DNA of 64,000 nt from Phycisphaerae bacterium (lineage in GTDB: Bacteria; Planctomycetota; Phycisphaerae; Phycisphaerales; UBA1924). The notes beneath the pieces are model-generated. The model had not been told where the DNA came from. It did no database searches and worked only from the letters and a program-made list of their open reading frames with translations. How positions within the stretch are numbered: position 1 is the first letter of the stretch; each line of letters starts with the position of its first letter. Position numbers and translations under genes: made by a program. Below are positions 14,821 to 35,101 of the stretch, piece after piece. The stretch is taken from positions 124,001 to 188,000 of the forward strand of contig JAUIES010000003.1 in assembly GCA_030429705.1 (NCBI GenBank), read 5' to 3'.

Positions 14821-16175
14821 CAGCGTACCTTGCCGACGAGGATGGTCCGATCGTCGTCGGCGGGCTCGTTGTCAGTAAAGGTCTCGACATCGGCCATGAT
14901 CGTCGAGATGAGTCCGCCGGCGTCGATGCCGCAGTTTTCGATTGATTTATCGAGTCGTTCGGTACCGAACAGTTGATTGCCCTGGCCGCGCGCTTCCGTG
15001 ATGCCATCGGTGTAGATCACCACCTGGTCGCCGGGTTCGAGTTGGGCGGTCGCTGCGTTATAGTGCGTTTCCGCCATAATTCCAAGCGGCAGATCGTTCG
15101 GCTTGCTGGGGCTGGCGTTCGATTCATCGATGTTATCAAGAACAAATGTTGTTCCATCAGAACATCGTTTCACGCGCGGCGGGGGGTGACCGGCGTTGGC
15201 GTAGGTCAGGAGTCGGGTCCGTTCGTTGAAGATTCCGAAGAAAGCGGTAACGAATGTGCCGTTCGGTCCGGCGTAGCGGGCTTCGAGGTTCGCGTTGAGA
15301 TAGGTCATGAACCGGGCCGGGCAATGGTGCTCGATCGCGGCTGCGTCCGGATGCCCCGCTCGAAAATGGAATGCATGGGCGAGTGAGTGCGTGATCGCCA
15401 TCAGGACGGCTGCGGGGGTGCCGTGTCCGCACACATCGGCCATGAAGATGCCCCATCGGCCATCGCCAAGGTTGAAGACATCATAATAATCCCCCCCGGC
15501 GCGAGCCGAGGTCTCGTAATAAGCAGCCAGATCGAGCGACGGGATGCCCGGCAACTTGTCCGGCAAAAGAGAGCGTTGAATGCGGGCGACAGTCTGCAGT
15601 TCCTTATCCAGTTTCTCGTAGGCAGCCTTGAGTTGCCGCTGCAGGACAAGCGTGCTGGTCGCACGCCCGAACAGATTCGTCGTCCAGACCTGCTCCGGAA
15701 AATGCTCGGGATCAAACCCGTCGGGCTGCGATGACAGAACCAAGTTCATGTTGAGAGCGACGCCACCATCAAAGACAGGCGTGACGATCGCGGAGCGATA
15801 CTGCCCGATGTACGGGTATGCGGGGTCCGATTCGGGTACACAAAGATCGTCGATGATCCTCGCTTCGCCCGCGTAAATCAGTTCGCTCAAAATGCCGCTC
15901 TCAAGCAGCGGCAACGAATCACGGTTGACCCATGGATCGGTGTCGATGCCGGTGTTCGAGTTCCGCGTAATCATCACCTGCGGCTCTTGAAGACCTCGCC
16001 GACTGATGGCGATGAACGCTTCAAACGCACTGACTTCGCGGATTTTTTCAGAGTACGCCTTAATCAGCGCGTTGGGATCCGTCGCTTGCGACGATTCGCG
16101 CATCATGTTCACGACGAAGGCGAGTCGATCCTGCCACGCGGCTTCCGCTCCATATCGCAGGCTGACGCGTGGCAT
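14820..16175 (-). CDS. GAF-SpoIIE (PP2C-type) serine phosphatase
   Basis: A 451-residue cytoplasmic signalling phosphatase of the RsbU/SpoIIE class. Residues about 15-195 form a GAF-like sensor; a linking helix with LQTVARIQRSLLPDKLP (the typical RsbU switch helix) precedes the PP2C domain. Metal-binding motifs are present: GGDYYDVFNLGDGRWGI, IFMADVCGHG, NAGHPPP and the C-terminal DDRTILVGKV. Such enzymes dephosphorylate anti-sigma-factor antagonists (SpoIIAA/RsbV), but no partner-switch genes are encoded here. It starts 18 nt after the putA stop, so it is probably cotranscribed with putA. Confidence 0.88.
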   Translation of the reverse strand: MPRVSLRYGAEAAWQDRLAFVVNMMRESSQATDPNALIKAYSEKIREVSAFEAFIAISRRGLQEPQVMITRNSNTGIDTDPWVNRDSLPLLESGILSELIYAGEARIIDDLCVPESDPAYPYIGQYRSAIVTPVFDGGVALNMNLVLSSQPDGFDPEHFPEQVWTTNLFGRATSTLVLQRQLKAAYEKLDKELQTVARIQRSLLPDKLPGIPSLDLAAYYETSARAGGDYYDVFNLGDGRWGIFMADVCGHGTPAAVLMAITHSLAHAFHFRAGHPDAAAIEHHCPARFMTYLNANLEARYAGPNGTFVTAFFGIFNERTRLLTYANAGHPPPRVKRCSDGTTFVLDNIDESNASPSKPNDLPLGIMAETHYNAATAQLEPGDQVVIYTDGITEARGQGNQLFGTERLDKSIENCGIDAGGLISTIMADVETFTDNEPADDDRTILVGKVR

Positions 16176-28318: not shown

Positions 28319-28816
28319 ATGATCCAGACCGCTGTGTATGCCGGGAGTTTTGATCCACCGACCAACGGGCATGTGTGGATGATCGAGCGTGCGGCTGCCA
28401 TGTTTGAGCGGTTGATCGTTGCGGTCGCGCAGAACCCGGAGAAGCCGTACTCGTATCCGCTCGAACAGCGATTGGGTTGGCTGGAAGAACTCACCGCATC
28501 GCACGACAATGTGTCGGTCGCCAGCATCGAAAACGAGTTTCTGGCTCATTATGCCGGTCGGGTGGGAGCATCGTGGATCATCCGCGGCATTCGCAACGAA
28601 GCCGACTACCAGTACGAACGCGGCATGCGGTATGTGAACAGTGATCTGGGGCCTGGGCTCACGACGGTGTTTCTGATGCCGTCGCGCGAACTGTGTGAAG
28701 TGTCGTCGAGTCTTGTGAAGGGGATGATCGGTCCGAATGGATGGGCGGACATCGTGAAGGGGTATGTGCCGTTGTGCGTGTTTGAAGATCTCATAGGAGA
28801 GCATGGGGGGGAATGA
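28319..28816 (+). CDS. coaD: Phosphopantetheine adenylyltransferase
   Basis: Transfers AMP from ATP to 4'-phosphopantetheine, the penultimate step of coenzyme A synthesis. The 165-residue protein has GSFDPPTNGH (the T/HxGH nucleotidyltransferase motif), the Arg-rich WIIRGIRNEADYQYERGM substrate loop and the C-terminal VSSSLVKGM signature that replaces ISST. Complete and of normal length. CoA supply links it functionally to accBC further on. Confidence 0.96.
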   Translation: MIQTAVYAGSFDPPTNGHVWMIERAAAMFERLIVAVAQNPEKPYSYPLEQRLGWLEELTASHDNVSVASIENEFLAHYAGRVGASWIIRGIRNEADYQYERGMRYVNSDLGPGLTTVFLMPSRELCEVSSSLVKGMIGPNGWADIVKGYVPLCVFEDLIGEHGGE

Positions 28817-28850
28817 ACACTGCCTTTACGCTCGAATCATCAGATCAATC

Positions 28851-28888
28851 CAAAAAGACGAAACCCGCGCCATGATGACGCGGGTTTC
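28851..28888 (-). terminator. Terminator of the GC-dockerin gene
   Basis: A perfect ten-pair stem, GAAACCCGCG (28860-28869) with CGCGGGTTTC (28879-28888), lies between the convergent coaD and dockerin-like genes. On the minus strand it is followed by GTCTTTTTGG, so it terminates the minus-strand gene; it may also stop the coaD transcript. Confidence 0.82.
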
Positions 28889-28938
28889 GGTGTCAAGTGG
28901 TTCACCCAGGTGTTCCAATCCTGGGCATGAGCGCGTTC

Positions 28939-30003
28939 TTACGGGCAGCCGGCGGAGAACTCGCCGAGGAAGTAGAGAACATCTGCGAATTCCCAGACGC
29001 CGTCGCCACCTTCGGGGACGAGGTCGGCTGCGGGATCCATGGCGGAGAACGCACCGAGGAATGCGAGGACATCAGCGAACTCGAGAACGCCGTAGGGTTC
29101 GACGAGGTCAGCATCGTTACACGGGCCGCCCGTGTCATCGGCTGCATACAGACCGAGGTAGTAAGACGCGAACGGACTCCAGTTGAATCCTGCGCCGCCG
29201 GAGCAGTCGATGCCACCGAACCAGTAGTTCGGGTTGGTGGTGTCCCAGTTCTGATCGAACGAGAGGCCCATATTGTCGGGGTCACCGAGGCTGTTGACCT
29301 CACTGAGTTCCGGAGGCGTGACGAGCATCATGCCTGCGAGGTGAGCGTTTGCATCTTTGGGCGTTGCGAACTGCCAGCCGTAGCCGAAGTCGGCCATGCT
29401 GTCGCCATCAATGTCGGTGCTCCCGAAGTTGAGTTCATTACCCGAACCGGCAAGGTCGACGGTGATGGCCCAGATGAGGTTGGCGCCACCGGTGGCACCG
29501 TTGCCATCTGAACCCGGAAGGTTGGGAATGGTGAAGACCTGTGTGATGAGGCTTCCGATCCCCGATGCGGTCGTGGTCTGATCAAGGCCGTCAAACAGTG
29601 AGAAGGTTGCTTCGAGCCCTTCGACGCCGTCGAGTTCGGGATCTGGAACATCAGTGACCCAGATGAGGGTCATGACATCGGCGACGGTATTGTCTGCGAT
29701 GTCACCCCAGTCAAGCCACCAGTTGTTGGTGCCGTTCGCGGTGTTGACTGCGGGGTACCAGTATGTTTCGTTGAAGCCGCACTGGTCGTTTTGTTCGTTG
29801 ATCCAGAGCGGCGTGCCGTTGCCACGAAACTCGGAGGGCGGGGTGATGGCGCGTTCGCCGGTTGCCAGGTTGATGTACATGTGTCCGACGCGATCCATGG
29901 AGATCGGCATCTGACCAGTGAGTGTGATGTTTTCCGGATTGGCTGTAGCTGCACATGCGCAGCCTGCAGCGACGGTCAACGCAACAAGTGTTCTCGTTTT
30001 CAT
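28939..30003 (-). CDS. Exported protein with GC-type dockerin-like C-terminus
   Basis: A 354-residue secreted protein. Signal peptide residues 1-22 (MKTRTLVALTVAAGCACAATA). A ~250-residue beta-rich body follows, with a Ca-loop-like DIDGDSMADFGYG segment. The last 60 residues hold two repeats of the form D-(A/L)-V-E-x-x-G-V-L/W-E-F-A-D-V-L-x-F-L-G-x-F-S-A, ending in AGCP; this is the 'GC-type dockerin' tail reported from planctomycetes. ATG 30003 has AAGGGAGC upstream. The body is not assigned; a surface or S-layer-associated role is likely. Confidence 0.8.
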   Translation of the reverse strand: MKTRTLVALTVAAGCACAATANPENITLTGQMPISMDRVGHMYINLATGERAITPPSEFRGNGTPLWINEQNDQCGFNETYWYPAVNTANGTNNWWLDWGDIADNTVADVMTLIWVTDVPDPELDGVEGLEATFSLFDGLDQTTTASGIGSLITQVFTIPNLPGSDGNGATGGANLIWAITVDLAGSGNELNFGSTDIDGDSMADFGYGWQFATPKDANAHLAGMMLVTPPELSEVNSLGDPDNMGLSFDQNWDTTNPNYWFGGIDCSGGAGFNWSPFASYYLGLYAADDTGGPCNDADLVEPYGVLEFADVLAFLGAFSAMDPAADLVPEGGDGVWEFADVLYFLGEFSAGCP

Positions 30004-30765
30004 TGTGATAGCTCCCTTTTCTACTTTCTGTAAACGGCGAAACAAAATGAGACAACAAACCCCCAATGGGGAACACCATCACTTCCTGCCGCTGACCACG
30101 AGATCAGCGGAGCAAGTGACGAAAAAGAGTCAACGTCTGACTCAGTCCATCAAATTGAATCGATGCCACACGGTGCGGTCACACTCGCTGATAATTAGCA
30201 CAATGCAAACCTGTGCGGCAACACCTTCTTCGTAATGCCATGGGCAACCCCTTCCCATCAGTGGCTTTGGCAACCCACGCGGCAACCAAGTCCACATTGA
30301 AGGCCACGAGAATGTCGCAGAACGCGACCGGTAATAAGCCCTCATCATTCAATATACAGAATGTTTTGTCGGACGCAAGCGGTGTGTCCCACGGACTCGC
30401 AAATACTGATCTTCGACAAGTTGTCGGTGGGGGACAAGGTGGGGGCGGTCTTAGCATGGAATCACCCGATCGTGTTGCGAACGGCTTTGGTTCACTTCGA
30501 TCGACGATACAAAGGTCGCGCCAGGGTCCTGATACGGTAAGGTCTTGCGTGCGGCAGCCTTAGTGGCTTGTGACGACAGCGTGTCGGATCGGCGATGTGA
30601 GTTGTTTCTCGATGACGATTCGAGCGTGGTGTAAAATTTGTACCAATAGTCGGTTCGATCTGAGAGAAACTGCTCGCTCGTGCAGAGCAACGGTGAGTGC
30701 CCGGTTTCGTCATGCCGGGCCGACCAACGCTGAGGCTTTCGGATGTCCCAGCGGTCAGTTCTTTC
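30004..30765. other. 760-nt gap, promoter region and unexplained sequence
   Basis: Contains the upstream region of the dockerin-like gene, with a hairpin CCGCTGA-N8-TCAGCGG (30089-30110). The rest holds only short frames (for example 30213-30563 plus, 30179-30457 minus) without family resemblance, codon bias or ribosome-binding sites. I see no RNA or mobile-element signature; it may be decayed coding sequence. Confidence 0.5.
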
Positions 30766-31170
30766 ATGGAGATCGTGGTGACCTATCGCAGCCTCATGCT
30801 CGCCGCATCAATCGCAGGACTCGTCGCGGGCCTCGCGCTCTTTGCACTTGTATACGCGTTTCGCGAGGCATTCCTCGCCCAGGACCAGTGGAACTTTCAA
30901 TCGAATCGAGGCGGTGCCGAGGGGTTCACGATCATGTGCAGCGTGGCCATTGGTTGTCTGTTCTCATGGGCCAACAGCCGGTTTTCCGGGTTTGACGGTC
31001 GGTCTCTCGCCGTGCCGCTCGTCCTTTTCGTGGCTGTGGCCGTCGGATTGGCCATCGTGCTTGAATATCAAGTCTCGCCCGAGTTGGTCTCGACACTGAC
31101 GCCGCGCATCGTACTCGCAGGCGGCGTGATTGCGGTCGCGGCCTGTGCAACCGAGTGGTTCCGCGGCTAA
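30766..31170 (+). CDS. Small four-helix membrane protein, unknown
   Basis: A 134-residue protein with four predicted membrane helices: LMLAASIAGLVAGLALFALV, TIMCSVAIGCLFSWA, LAVPLVLFVAVAVGLAIVL and PRIVLAGGVIAVAACA. ATG 30766 puts the first helix at the N-terminus; the frame also extends to 30697. No family recognised. It is convergent with another small membrane protein of similar size and topology, but the two share no obvious sequence. Confidence 0.58.
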   Translation: MEIVVTYRSLMLAASIAGLVAGLALFALVYAFREAFLAQDQWNFQSNRGGAEGFTIMCSVAIGCLFSWANSRFSGFDGRSLAVPLVLFVAVAVGLAIVLEYQVSPELVSTLTPRIVLAGGVIAVAACATEWFRG

Positions 31171-31229
31171 AGAACTGTGGCAACCGGGCGCTGCCGAAGT
31201 CAATTCGACATCGGAACCGCCTGCTTCGT

Positions 31230-31646
31230 TCAATACTCCGTCAGCCAGTAGCGGGCGATTATGGCGGGCACGGCTGCGGTGCCCAATTGATAGGCAAGCG
31301 TCAGCCAGCCGAGGTCCACCGTCGTCGCCCTAGGAAAGGGTGGGGGCGAGTCTAGAATATCATCATTCAACACGACTGCGAGCACGGTTCCGCCGACCAC
31401 CGCTGCCGTGGCAAGGATCGCGCAGCCCCACGAGATCCACGCGCTCCCAAATTGACAGGTCGCGACGGCGTGCAGCACCCAGAACACGCCGATGGTGAGC
31501 AGAGCGCGTGGGATCAGGGACATGATCAGATAGAAATTCCACGACTCAAGCAGTCCGATGAGGGTCGCACACACGCTCGCGACGACCACTGCCATCATCA
31601 GCGGTCTGCCAAGAGTAAGGATCGAGAGGTGGCTTGGATCATCCAT
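31230..31646 (-). CDS. Small four-helix membrane protein, unknown
   Basis: A 138-residue protein with four hydrophobic stretches: PLMMAVVVASVCATLIGLLE, LIPRALLTIGVFWVLHAVA, ISWGCAILATAAVVGGTVLA and a final YQLGTAAVPAIIARYWLT. ATG 31646 gives MDDPSHLS before the first helix. No recognised domain. Confidence 0.58.
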   Translation of the reverse strand: MDDPSHLSILTLGRPLMMAVVVASVCATLIGLLESWNFYLIMSLIPRALLTIGVFWVLHAVATCQFGSAWISWGCAILATAAVVGGTVLAVVLNDDILDSPPPFPRATTVDLGWLTLAYQLGTAAVPAIIARYWLTEY

Positions 31647-31803
31647 CAGGAAAATGCTACGCCACTGACGGGTGGCATGGTCTTGGCTTTGCAAGGCCAT
31701 GATCGAGGTTCAGTGACGCTCCAAATTTCCATGAAGACATGACCGCTGTGCCTGGCTTCCCGGGCAAACCGAATCCCTTTTTTTTCGTGTAGTATGGCGT
31801 CAT

Positions 31804-32256
31804 ATGCGTCACGGTCTCATCAAATCCATCGCCCACAACTTCCTCCAAACCTACACCAGTCGATACTCGAGTTGGCACGGTTACTGGCTTTGGGGCTTTG
31901 TGATAGAAGATCATCTTCATTTAAATTGGGATCTTCTCGCAAGGCCGACTGGCTCGCACTACGACCCACTTACATTTGCTCGTGAACTCGCTGTCGTGCG
32001 ATTCTTCCAGCAATGTGAGAAGCAGGGAGCAAGCAGACGAATCGAGCGAGTCGAACTCATCATCACAGCCTCAACACCGCCCGATACGCTCTACACCCGA
32101 ACATTTGGCCTCCGCCTGTTGAACATGCGGTTCGTCATCAAGGTTGAAACCAGTGGTACAGCGATCGTTACCGAATGCGATATCCTCGTCGCACGCCATG
32201 ACCCGAGTCTGGAGTCACCGTCATACGGTACAACCCCGTTGGACCCGATCAACTAA
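31804..32256 (+). CDS. Hypothetical protein
   Basis: A 150-residue soluble protein, unrecognised. It is rich in His, Trp and Tyr near the N-terminus (SSWHGYWLWGFVIEDHLHLNW) and has alternating beta-type segments later (RVELIITAS, FVIKVETSGTAIVTECDILV), suggesting a compact alpha/beta fold. ATG 31804 has no ribosome-binding site but a TAGTAT nine nt upstream, so the message may be leaderless. It is convergent with the accC remnant and borders the duplicated segment. Confidence 0.55.
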   Translation: MRHGLIKSIAHNFLQTYTSRYSSWHGYWLWGFVIEDHLHLNWDLLARPTGSHYDPLTFARELAVVRFFQQCEKQGASRRIERVELIITASTPPDTLYTRTFGLRLLNMRFVIKVETSGTAIVTECDILVARHDPSLESPSYGTTPLDPIN

Positions 32257-32430
32257 TTTGTAGGCGAAGGTGCCGAAGATCGGGGGTGATGGGATATCAA
32301 AGACCGAGGGCATGTGCCGCTCGGCGCGGTGAGACATTCGCAATTGGTTGTCCGCGCAGGCCACCGGACCCGTGCCACCAATGCCTCATCCCAATCGGAT
32401 CCGCCTCGGAGAGGCGGGCTACCCACGATG

Positions 32431-32688
32431 CCTACTTGAGCAACCGTTCCAGGTAATGGATATCGATGCCGCCGGTCTTGAAGGCGGAGTCTTGCATTAG
32501 GCGCAGTTGCAGGTCGATCGTCGTGTTGATCGGGCCGACGCGGAACTCGCGGAGGGCCCGGGCCGTGCGTTCGATGGCTTCGGCGCGTGAGTCGGCGTGG
32601 ACGATCAACTTGCCGATCATCGAGTCGTAGTTGGGGGGGACGAAGTAGCCGGGCACCACATGCGAGTCAATCCGCACGCCCGGGCCGC
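32431..32688 (-). pseudogene. Displaced 3' end of accC
   Basis: These 258 bp repeat the last 86 codons and stop of accC at 33760-34017. I count 14 differences (about 94.6% identity); the longest open stretch from codon 6 on is translated identically in both copies, so the differences there are all synonymous. There is no N-terminal part, promoter or ribosome-binding site, so the fragment cannot make a working biotin carboxylase. At its open end (32689) similarity stops abruptly. A hairpin CCGCCTC-GGA-GAGGCGG lies 14 nt beyond the stop (32401-32417) and may be the old accC terminator. Confidence 0.9.
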
Positions 32689-32714
32689 AGCGCCAGTAAA
32701 GGTCTCCGACCGTG

Positions 32715-32740
32715 CCACTGACCTGTCCGCAGGTCAGTGG
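32715..32740. repeat. Perfect 11-bp hairpin near cassette edge
   Basis: CCACTGACCTG-TCCG-CAGGTCAGTGG, perfect, 27 nt inside the end of the accC remnant. No T-run on either strand, so it is not a typical terminator. Confidence 0.7.
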
Positions 32741-32771
32741 GACTTGTCATGGATGGTCACCCTCGCTGATC

Positions 32772-32806
32772 AAGAACAAACGCCCCGGGCGAAGAGCCCG
32801 AGGCGT
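32772..32806 (-). terminator. Terminator of the PEP-CTERM-like gene
   Basis: An eleven-pair stem with one mismatch around GAAGA (32780-32806) is followed on the minus strand by GTTTGTTCTTG. It lies 47 nt after the stop of the minus-strand gene at 32853-33446. Confidence 0.78.
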
Positions 32807-32852
32807 GACGATGATCACATTCATGTGGTTCGTTCGATCGCTCGTTCACGAC

Positions 32853-33446
32853 TCAACGGCGACGACGCGTGACGACCAGGCCACCAAAGCCGAGCAGGGC
32901 CGCCGCGCCGGGCGCGGGAACACTGGTTTCTGAAAACACGATGGTGTATGCACCGGTTCGAGAACCATTATATAACCAGCCGCCAAGGACGCCATTGGGG
33001 TCCTCGATGCCAGTATCGTTATCTTGAATCAGAACCCCTGCTCCGTCTGTGGCATGCGTGTTGTTATCGCCAACACCAAAGTAGTACACGCCGGGGGTAA
33101 TCGCGATGGTCAGGACACTATTGAGGAAGCTGTCACCCATCGAACTGCCGTCATCGTTCGCGCCAAGTGGATTGCCCGCCGCGTTAAAGGCGTGCAGGTT
33201 CATATCGAGAGTGAAGCCAACTGCCTCAACGGCATCAATCTGCAGATTGCCGGTGAAGTTGAACTGGACGCAATACAGATCCACCTCGCCGGATGTGTCG
33301 ATGTTTCCAGCGATGACATTGATTCCCGAGCCGACATTCTGGGCCGTGCCCGGCAAGTCGCCGGTATCGCCAACCTCGTTGTAAACATTTGCACATGCGA
33401 TGCTTGCAATACCAGCGAAGACGGTAAGTCCGAAGATCTCGTTCAT
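32853..33446 (-). CDS. Exported protein with PEP-CTERM-like tail, cassette cargo
   Basis: A 197-residue secreted protein: signal peptide 1-19 (ending SIACA), a ~150-residue beta-sandwich resembling bacterial pre-peptidase/DVUA0089-like domains (EVDLYCVQFNFTGNLQIDAVEA, GVYYFGVGDNN, GAYTIVFSE), then the sorting tail SVPAPGAAALLGFGGLVVTRRRR (Pro motif, helix, Arg cluster). It lies exactly between the complete accC and its duplicated 3' end, making it the only gene of that segment. The upstream GAGAGG nine nt before ATG is the ribosome-binding site. Role unknown; probably surface matrix. Confidence 0.8.
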   Translation of the reverse strand: MNEIFGLTVFAGIASIACANVYNEVGDTGDLPGTAQNVGSGINVIAGNIDTSGEVDLYCVQFNFTGNLQIDAVEAVGFTLDMNLHAFNAAGNPLGANDDGSSMGDSFLNSVLTIAITPGVYYFGVGDNNTHATDGAGVLIQDNDTGIEDPNGVLGGWLYNGSRTGAYTIVFSETSVPAPGAAALLGFGGLVVTRRRR

Positions 33447-33759
33447 GATTGTGCCTCTCTCATCCTATAAAAAAAACAAATGCGTGCTGTCGACACCATC
33501 GGGCTTAGCCTCACGCTGAGGCTGCGACAGACTGGTCGACAGGGCATGGTATCAGGCGAGACTGTCCGCCGAATGTGCTAAATGGTAAAACGCAAGCAAA
33601 ATGCAGAAATATTTACAGTTTCTGATGTGGCGGCACCCGATCTTACCCATCTTGCCACCAATACCGTGCTTCGCGGCACGATGGCTCTGGTATGCAAGTA
33701 AAGGAGCTGGCTCCATTGATGTTGATGAGGGATCGTTGGAACGCCTCAATGCGACCACG
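33447..33759. other. Noncoding upstream region of the cassette gene
   Basis: About 310 nt without a frame worth reporting. It carries the A-rich stretch just before the PEP-CTERM-like gene's leader, the symmetrical dyad at 33487-33542 and a small hairpin CGTGC-TTCGCG-GCACG (33665-33680). It is more AT-rich (33585-33625) than its neighbours. Confidence 0.6.
33487..33542. repeat. Symmetrical two-tier dyad, 56 bp
   Basis: Outer arms CTGTCGAC (33487-33494) and GTCGACAG (33535-33542) enclose inner arms AGCCTCA (33507-33513) and TGAGGCT (33517-33523), with spacers of 12 and 11 nt. Such symmetry suits a recombinase or regulator site, or an extruded cruciform; it lies ahead of the PEP-CTERM-like gene. 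Confidence 0.6.
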
Positions 33760-34017
33760 CCTACTTGAGCAACCGCTCTAAGTAATGGATGTCGATGCCG
33801 CCGGTCTTGAAGGCCGAGTCCTGCATCAGTCGGAGTTGCAGGTCGATGGTCGTGTTGATCGGGCCGACGCGGAACTCGCGGAGGGCGCGAGCGGTGCGTT
33901 CGATGGCTTCGGCGCGTGAGTCGGCGTGGACGATCAACTTGCCGATCATCGAGTCGTAGTTGGGGGGGACGAAGTAGCCGGGCACCACATGCGAGTCGAT
34001 CCGCACGCCCGGGCCGC
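33760..34017 (-). repeat. accC 3'-end copy inside the intact gene
   Basis: The partner of the remnant at 32431-32688, in direct orientation, start-to-start distance 1329 bp. The two copies differ at 14 positions, 13 of them in the 165 bp nearest the stop codon and one in the remaining 93 bp, an uneven spread. Confidence 0.93.
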
Positions 34018-35101
34018 CGGGTAGTTCCCAGGTGTCGATGCGGCCGGCGCTTGGCATGAAGTTCCGCGTTGGGTCTTCGGCGTTGATGCGGCACTCGATC
34101 GCGTGGCCACGGATGGTGATGTCCTTCTGCTTGACAGGCAAGGGTTCGCCGGCGGCGACGCGGATTGAAGTCTTGAGAATATCTACGCCGGTGATCATCT
34201 CGGTGACCGGGTGTTCGACCTGCACACGCGTGTTGACCTCAAGCATGTAGAAGTTCTGCTTGTTGTCCATCAGGAACTCGACAGTCGCAGCACCGGCATA
34301 TTCTGCCGACTTGACGAGTCGAGCGGCGGCTTCACAGACCGCAGTCATCTTCTTGCGATCGACTTCAGGAGCCGGGGCTTCTTCGATCACTTTCTGATGG
34401 CGTCGCTGCATGGAGCAGTCTCGCTCGAAAAGGTGGATTGCGTGCCCGTGTTTATCGCCGATGACCTGGACTTCGACATGGCGGGCAGATTCGAGGAACT
34501 TTTCAACGAAGACGCTGCCGTCGCCAAACGCGGCGAGCGCTTCCTGCTGAGCCTTCTTGATGTTGGTGCGGAGGGTTGCTTCGTTGTGGCAGACGCGCAT
34601 GCCGCGTCCGCCGCCACCGGCTGCCGCTTTGATGATGACGGGGTACCCGATCTCGGCTGCGACTTCGACGGCTTCTTCTTCGACCTCGATCGCTCCTTCT
34701 GAACCTGGGAAGACGGGGACTTTGGCCGCTCGTGCGAAGCGTTTGGCTTCGACTTTGTCGCCGAGGCGACGCATGGCTTCGGGACTTGGACCGATGAACT
34801 CGATTTTGCAGTCGCGGCAGACTTCGCTGAAGTCGGCGCGTTCGGCGAGGAAGCCGTAGCCGGGGTGAATGGCATCGACATCCGCGATTTCGGCTGCGGA
34901 GATGATGCGGGAGATGTTGAGATAAGAATCGCGGGCCGGACCGGGACCGATGCAGATGGCGCGGTCAGCGAGACGCAAGTAGGGGGCATCGCGGTCGGCT
35001 TCAGAATAGACGCAGACGGTCTCGATGCCCAGTTCCTGACAAGCGCGCATGATGCGCAGCGCAATCTCACCTCGATTTGCAATCAGAACGCGTCGGAACA
35101 T
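33761..35101 (-). CDS. accC: Acetyl-CoA carboxylase, biotin carboxylase subunit
   Basis: Carboxylates the biotin of AccB with ATP and bicarbonate, committing acetyl-CoA to fatty acid synthesis. The 446-residue ATP-grasp protein is complete: N-terminal MFRRVLIANRGEIALRIMRA, glycine loop KAAAGGGGRGMR, the catalytic MEVNTRVQVEHPVTE-like strand (here LEVNTRVQVEHPVTE) and the C-terminal BC domain. It follows accB (95 nt gap), the usual order. Its last 86 codons are duplicated at 32431-32688, which raises the possibility that the present 3' end is a replacement from a related lineage; the protein is uninterrupted. Confidence 0.97.
   Translation of the reverse strand: MFRRVLIANRGEIALRIMRACQELGIETVCVYSEADRDAPYLRLADRAICIGPGPARDSYLNISRIISAAEIADVDAIHPGYGFLAERADFSEVCRDCKIEFIGPSPEAMRRLGDKVEAKRFARAAKVPVFPGSEGAIEVEEEAVEVAAEIGYPVIIKAAAGGGGRGMRVCHNEATLRTNIKKAQQEALAAFGDGSVFVEKFLESARHVEVQVIGDKHGHAIHLFERDCSMQRRHQKVIEEAPAPEVDRKKMTAVCEAAARLVKSAEYAGAATVEFLMDNKQNFYMLEVNTRVQVEHPVTEMITGVDILKTSIRVAAGEPLPVKQKDITIRGHAIECRINAEDPTRNFMPSAGRIDTWELPGGPGVRIDSHVVPGYFVPPNYDSMIGKLIVHADSRAEAIERTARALREFRVGPINTTIDLQLRLMQDSAFKTGGIDIHYLERLLK

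Follow-up and report, generated by a model that had tools for sequence, protein, structure and literature searches.

Genes can be gained through one-sided homology, as laboratory work has shown and as has been proposed for toxin loci. In HFIR, as described in PMC3240628, one homologous and one illegitimate junction are formed and foreign DNA is gained between them, at a rate that is very low in E. coli conjugation. The account in PMC5361080, which likewise describes HFIR as rare in experiments, invokes a process akin to it for the T6SS loci of Vibrio cholerae, where inserted effector-immunity modules displace older genes downstream, and for the orphaned 3' regions of Rhs loci. Target-gene-restoring islands of the Islander type, as presented in PMC4383910, leave an intact gene, cargo, and a displaced gene fragment. 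Duplications made by transformation and homology-assisted illegitimate recombination have also been described (PMC3784515, PMC2884548); in the Streptococcus pneumoniae merodiploids treated in PMC3784515, donor DNA bridges two chromosome copies and a duplication results. Natural footprints of one-sided homology in housekeeping genes are hard to recognize. Here, we describe a locus in a planctomycete genome whose layout resembles these systems, at the 3' end of accC, a metabolic gene of fatty-acid synthesis.

The stretch of DNA that we analyzed, which we call the window, is 64 kb long (contig C5, positions 124001-188000). It holds a complete accC, encoding the biotin carboxylase subunit of acetyl-CoA carboxylase (33761-35101, minus strand, 446 aa). 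The product scores 664.4 bits against TIGR00514, for which the cut-off is 626.5, and also matches the Pfam biotin carboxylase domains. The 3' end of this gene (copy F, 33761-34017, minus strand) occurs a second time as a displaced end of 84 codons plus stop (copy D, 32432-32688, minus strand), in direct orientation and at a spacing of 1329 bp. Over their 257 bp, the two copies differ at 14 nucleotides in 13 codons (5, 40, 41, 42, 55, 60, 61, 62, 64, 66, 74, 78, and 79, numbered from the start of D), and all 14 differences are synonymous. An initial annotation, made from the sequence, had reported the duplication with synonymous-only differences, and we could confirm both; the identical translation runs over 84 codons plus stop rather than the 81 codons it had given. 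The repeat starts at 34017 in F and 32688 in D, with no clear similarity between the copies upstream of these positions, and past the stop codon their homology fades within about 10 bp. This footprint is real and unusual. F and D form the sole direct repeat of at least 60 bp in the window (repeat search, seed 14), and no other direct repeat of at least 200 bp at 90% identity was found in twenty 20-kb stretches of the same genome; the other repeats in 400 kb of this genome are paralogous or complex ones. Base composition showed no clear break.

Between the two copies lies the cargo ORF (32853-33446, minus strand, 197 aa), in keeping with the layout of full gene, cargo, and displaced gene end that had been described for this locus. 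The C-terminus of its product resembles PEP-CTERM and MYXO-CTERM ends through sub-threshold matches, with 17.6 bits against a curated NCBIfam cut-off of 20 for MYXO-CTERM and 19.3 against 125 for XDP1. The C-terminal sorting signal passed a home-made regular expression but no curated cut-off, and the earlier description of the cargo as a PEP-CTERM-like gene holds for the resemblance of its tail and not at the curated thresholds. At E 1e-6, the cargo ORF matched 47 of 163 family genomes, its own genome counted, some of them through the C-terminal signal only.

The pattern of changes argues that both ends were once under selection as parts of working genes. Random point changes in the repeat stretch would be synonymous in only 25-32% of cases. 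The probability that 14 of 14 changes are synonymous is 4e-9 to 1e-7 if all fell in one neutral copy, and 7e-5 to 3e-4 if seven fell in D and seven in F. The divergence is synonymous-only, and homology fades after the stop codon, as it would between orthologues whose lineages have unlike flanks. The two ends therefore most likely go back to two functional accC genes of separate lineages; the earlier suggestion that both had been functional in separate lineages before they met is thus well supported. A phylogenetic comparison of both 3' ends, which had been proposed as a way of naming the native one, ended in a near tie. For this comparison we used 43 of 63 relatives' tails, dropping the 20 whose ungapped register identity was 60% or less, and at the 13 differing codons counted 157 matches to F and 137 to D. 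Since the relatives match F and D near evenly, phylogeny does not distinguish the native end from the imported one.

The differences between F and D are spread unevenly along the repeat, with 1 differing codon among the first 40 and 12 among the last 44 (Fisher p 0.0018, the split having been picked post hoc, after the data were seen). If the differing codons were placed at random, a stretch of at least 34 identical codons would arise with p 0.008. Pairs of the 43 relatives, when pooled, are synonymously as diverged in the one part as in the other (0.396 and 0.398). If the first 40 codons had diverged at the rate seen in the last 44, 10.9 differences would be expected there, and 1 was seen; the probability of one or none is 5e-5 to 2e-4, with that rate treated as known. 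For single pairs, the counts in the first and last parts were 11/34 and 18/33 for F versus G136, 9/31 and 14/32 for F versus G032, and 7/40 and 14/44 for G067 versus G066, with the direction reversed for G110 versus G109 (13/40 and 7/44). The F-D pair is more uneven than any pair among the 15 closest pairs listed. Judged by these counts, the F-D asymmetry is stronger than ordinary variation between single pairs, yet not unlike it. The clustering toward the stop codon that the initial annotation had pointed out is therefore real, and the partial gene conversion that it had offered as the cause is made unnecessary rather than refuted: if D is native, near-identical 5' halves are expected without gene conversion, because both would be host sequence, and the lone difference among the first 40 codons would have arisen afterwards by mutation. 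A boundary between host and imported sequence would then fall within F at 33896-33997 (minus strand), between differing codons 5 and 40, an interval placed by the asymmetry of the differences.

The layout is probably, though by no means surely, explained by a homology-anchored import, similar to HFIR, of a donor accC end together with the cargo. We read D as the native accC end and the stop-proximal part of F as an imported allele. A donor fragment from a related, probably congeneric, lineage would have carried that lineage's accC 3' end and the PEP-CTERM-like gene behind it; a donor with this layout is plausible because such genes often follow accC in the family. The fragment would have recombined by homology inside the resident accC, with a crossover at 33896-33997, and its other end would have been attached at 32688/32689, directly upstream of the resident accC end, with no homology involved. 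This sequence of steps would have left accC intact with a chimeric, protein-identical end, added a cargo inserted from another genome, and pushed the resident end 1.3 kb downstream as a dead fragment. Similarity to F ends at 32688/32689, and at 32689 the cargo side joins D with no homology to the upstream side of F, as is seen at the second junction in HFIR. From the arrangement as it now stands, we infer the identity of the native end, the direction of import, the route of uptake, and the formation of both junctions in one event, as HFIR has it.

Compared with the systems above, the accC case would share with HFIR a homologous and an illegitimate junction with foreign DNA between them, deduced here from one genome. 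Laboratory cases of HFIR typically delete host sequence. Here, unlike in those cases, the illegitimate joint would lie upstream of the anchor, so that host sequence is duplicated. The Rhs and T6SS immunity-gene arrays are similar in that a new part with cargo arrives at a conserved stretch and the old part is pushed downstream, but these are effector loci with exchanged ends, whereas accC is a metabolic gene whose protein is unchanged and whose cargo is surface-protein-like. The S. pneumoniae merodiploids differ in that, in the description given in PMC3784515, donor repeats drive large tandem duplications. Our literature search on planctomycete competence returned matches that look unrelated. 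The proposed mechanism is of a known kind, and its possible recurrence at accC is worth following.

We searched family genomes with the accC end and found it at E 1e-8 in 156 of 163, with two matches in three genomes, the window's own included. A search for other accC-flanked cassettes, as had been proposed, was successful in G029 (L203:2401-7288), where a second displaced accC 3' end lies 4.6 kb downstream of accC. The order there is accC, an IS256-family transposase (PF00872, NF033543), ORFs with signal-like starts as judged by eye, and the displaced end. This end is 139 bp long, 91% identical, and reaches the stop codon. Its codon differences are 7 synonymous and 5 nonsynonymous, with a different stop as well, which is what an older copy in decay would show. 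Its start lies 46 codons before the stop, versus 84 in the window. In the third genome (G174, L204), the second match proved to be a scaffold N-gap between short repeated stretches and not a displaced end; the interruption of accC by a run of N is probably a scaffolding artefact. We also examined an order sample of 400 genomes, the family included, of which 377 matched the accC end at E 1e-6. Twelve further genomes had two or more matches, and we rejected the extra ones, which fall in frames 452-1209 aa long (232 aa in G220, close to the start of a contig) and are either on a different contig or 270 kb or more distant. A displaced accC end was found in 2 of the 377 genomes, with thresholds under which short fragments and contig edges escape notice. 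When shorter accC pieces were sought downstream of accC in 176 loci (overlapping loci, not genomes), the matches were the 139 bp of G029 and others of 19-58 bp, which we took as chance.

An alternative that fits nearly as well as homology-anchored import is that the donor fragment circularized and entered through one crossover of the Campbell type within the accC end, after which the 5' part of one copy was altered by gene conversion. It yields the same layout, and PMC3240628 reports circularization with a single crossover among the fates of linear DNA in E. coli. This route predicts differences along the whole repeat, against the 1 in 40 and 12 in 44 codons seen, and because the differences cluster in the last 44 codons it needs the second event; we consider it unlikely.

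Less probable again is an assembly artefact in which the contig joins two strains, so that F and D are alleles of different cells. A strain mixture would supply just such synonymously diverged alleles. However, the absence of similarity to the upstream side of F at 32689 makes a plain overlap join unlikely, although a chimeric read is possible; the genome (G000) is in 8 contigs with 0.13% contamination, and the similar case with a decayed displaced end in G029 belongs to another genus. We therefore give the artefact little credence.

The initial annotation read the locus as a site-specific integration at the accC 3' end, by a mobile element that brought a replacement end. The layout is indeed like that of the target-gene-restoring islands as presented in PMC4383910, but the two differ in that accC is a protein-coding target, has no PF00589 integrase nearby, and shows no constant start of the displaced end in the two cases. 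Five ORFs scanned between coaD and accC had no Pfam match and no recombinase domain. The linked integrase that the annotation had suggested looking for did not turn up: all seven PF00589 (tyrosine recombinase) matches in the genome lie outside the window, and the only one on its contig is at C5:309883. The start of the displaced end, 84 codons from the stop in the window and 46 in G029, does not indicate a constant crossover point in the target, though the two cases could be unlike elements. A pattern search of viral contigs, able to detect close relatives only, gave no confirmed relative of the accC end. Among phage records, 23 of 50,697 matched the accC end, each below 60% identity; of the 20 of these that were listed, the annotated ones are accC-type genes and most carry no annotation. 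Among plasmid records, 29 matched, and the 20 listed matched the accC part of the query only. A site-specific event also predicts differences throughout the repeat unless conversion came after, and we judge it slightly more improbable still than the artefact. An ordinary tandem duplication in one genome, with the distal copy then drifting, would account for a direct repeat at short distance, but it is very improbable because 14 of 14 synonymous changes are not to be expected in a neutral copy and because flank homology fades past the stop codon.

We compared the neighborhood of accC across the clade. In G113, G078, G079, and G032, the convergent neighbor of accC is coaD, which in the window lies at 28319-28816 (plus strand, TIGR01510), leaving a coaD-accC interval of 4.9 kb (28817-33760). 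G113 is the nearest relative judged by accC, and its accC and coaD ORFs share 8 bp at their 3' ends; in G078, G079, and G032, all of genus g33, the interval is about 1.03-1.07 kb and holds one PEP-CTERM-like gene that does not group with the cargo of the window. No coaD match was present in the fetched stretch, in some cases a short one, at 59 of the 63 surveyed loci. Given the overlap in G113, the gene in g33, and the contents of the window, the interval has held different genes within the clade. The window's interval also includes a gene for a GC-type dockerin-anchored protein at 28939-30015 (NF041540), for which only a 50-residue end, in G113, was found in relatives' accC loci; the genes at 30697, 31230, and 31804 had no match there at E 1e-4, the last of these (31804-32256) being the gene that the initial annotation had expected to follow an uninterrupted accC. 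No empty site or donor was found among the relatives' genomes examined, a sample without a genus-mate.

Using a home-made C-terminal motif, we called 21 PEP-CTERM-like ends within 2 kb downstream of accC (63 genomes, 122 kb) and 4 in the next 4 kb (224 kb; near versus far p 8e-7). As the only baseline we used sampled stretches totalling 400 kb of the window's own genome; they held 15 such ends, a density that gives 4.6 expected near accC, about five times lower than seen. After collapsing, the near ends fell by BLASTP into 10 groups and the far ones, grouped by eye, into 3 (p 0.003 to 0.006); several groups probably consist of vertically inherited orthologues, and one match (G005 at 1355), if not more, seems doubtful. 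One near group joins the window's cargo to a homologue in G183 that lies 106 bp from accC on the opposite strand. With a looser motif used earlier, the counts had been 15 near, one of them spurious by eye, and 2 far. These counts are suggestive, and the downstream flank of accC may be a turnover spot for PEP-CTERM-like genes; we found no paper treating both PEP-CTERM and accC. A bolder proposal, which we entertain but do not favor, is that this planctomycete family repeatedly gains PEP-CTERM-like and dockerin-type surface-protein genes at the accC 3' flank, which would act as a landing site; homologous recombination in the conserved accC end would load it with no need of an integrase, and displaced ends would be the footprints. 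Displaced ends with synonymous-only differences pinpoint the joint, may also reveal the breakpoint and the native flank, and could be searched for systematically; such ends would show whether conserved gene ends serve uncultured bacteria as general landing pads at which surface-protein genes enter without an integrase.

A dispersed palindrome, ACTGACCTGNNNNCAGGTCAGT (32717-32738), lies about 30 bp away from the joint; it occurs at 12 places in the genome, including this one, with up to 2 mismatches (control 0), and folds strongly (hairpin z-score -3.57). It may have favored the illegitimate joint. Its REP-like copies form close pairs at two spots on contig C8, and at L009 a run of T comes after the palindrome, as in an intrinsic terminator. 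A second, short palindrome just past the stop codon of D (32401-32418, minus strand), with one further place in the genome at one mismatch, is possibly the old accC terminator; it has no T run and folds no better than shuffles. Elsewhere in the window's own genome, a 128-bp stretch is repeated 467 bp apart at 91% identity (L224:15160-15287 and 15627-15754) and, judged by eye, encodes the end of a zinc-ribbon-type protein.
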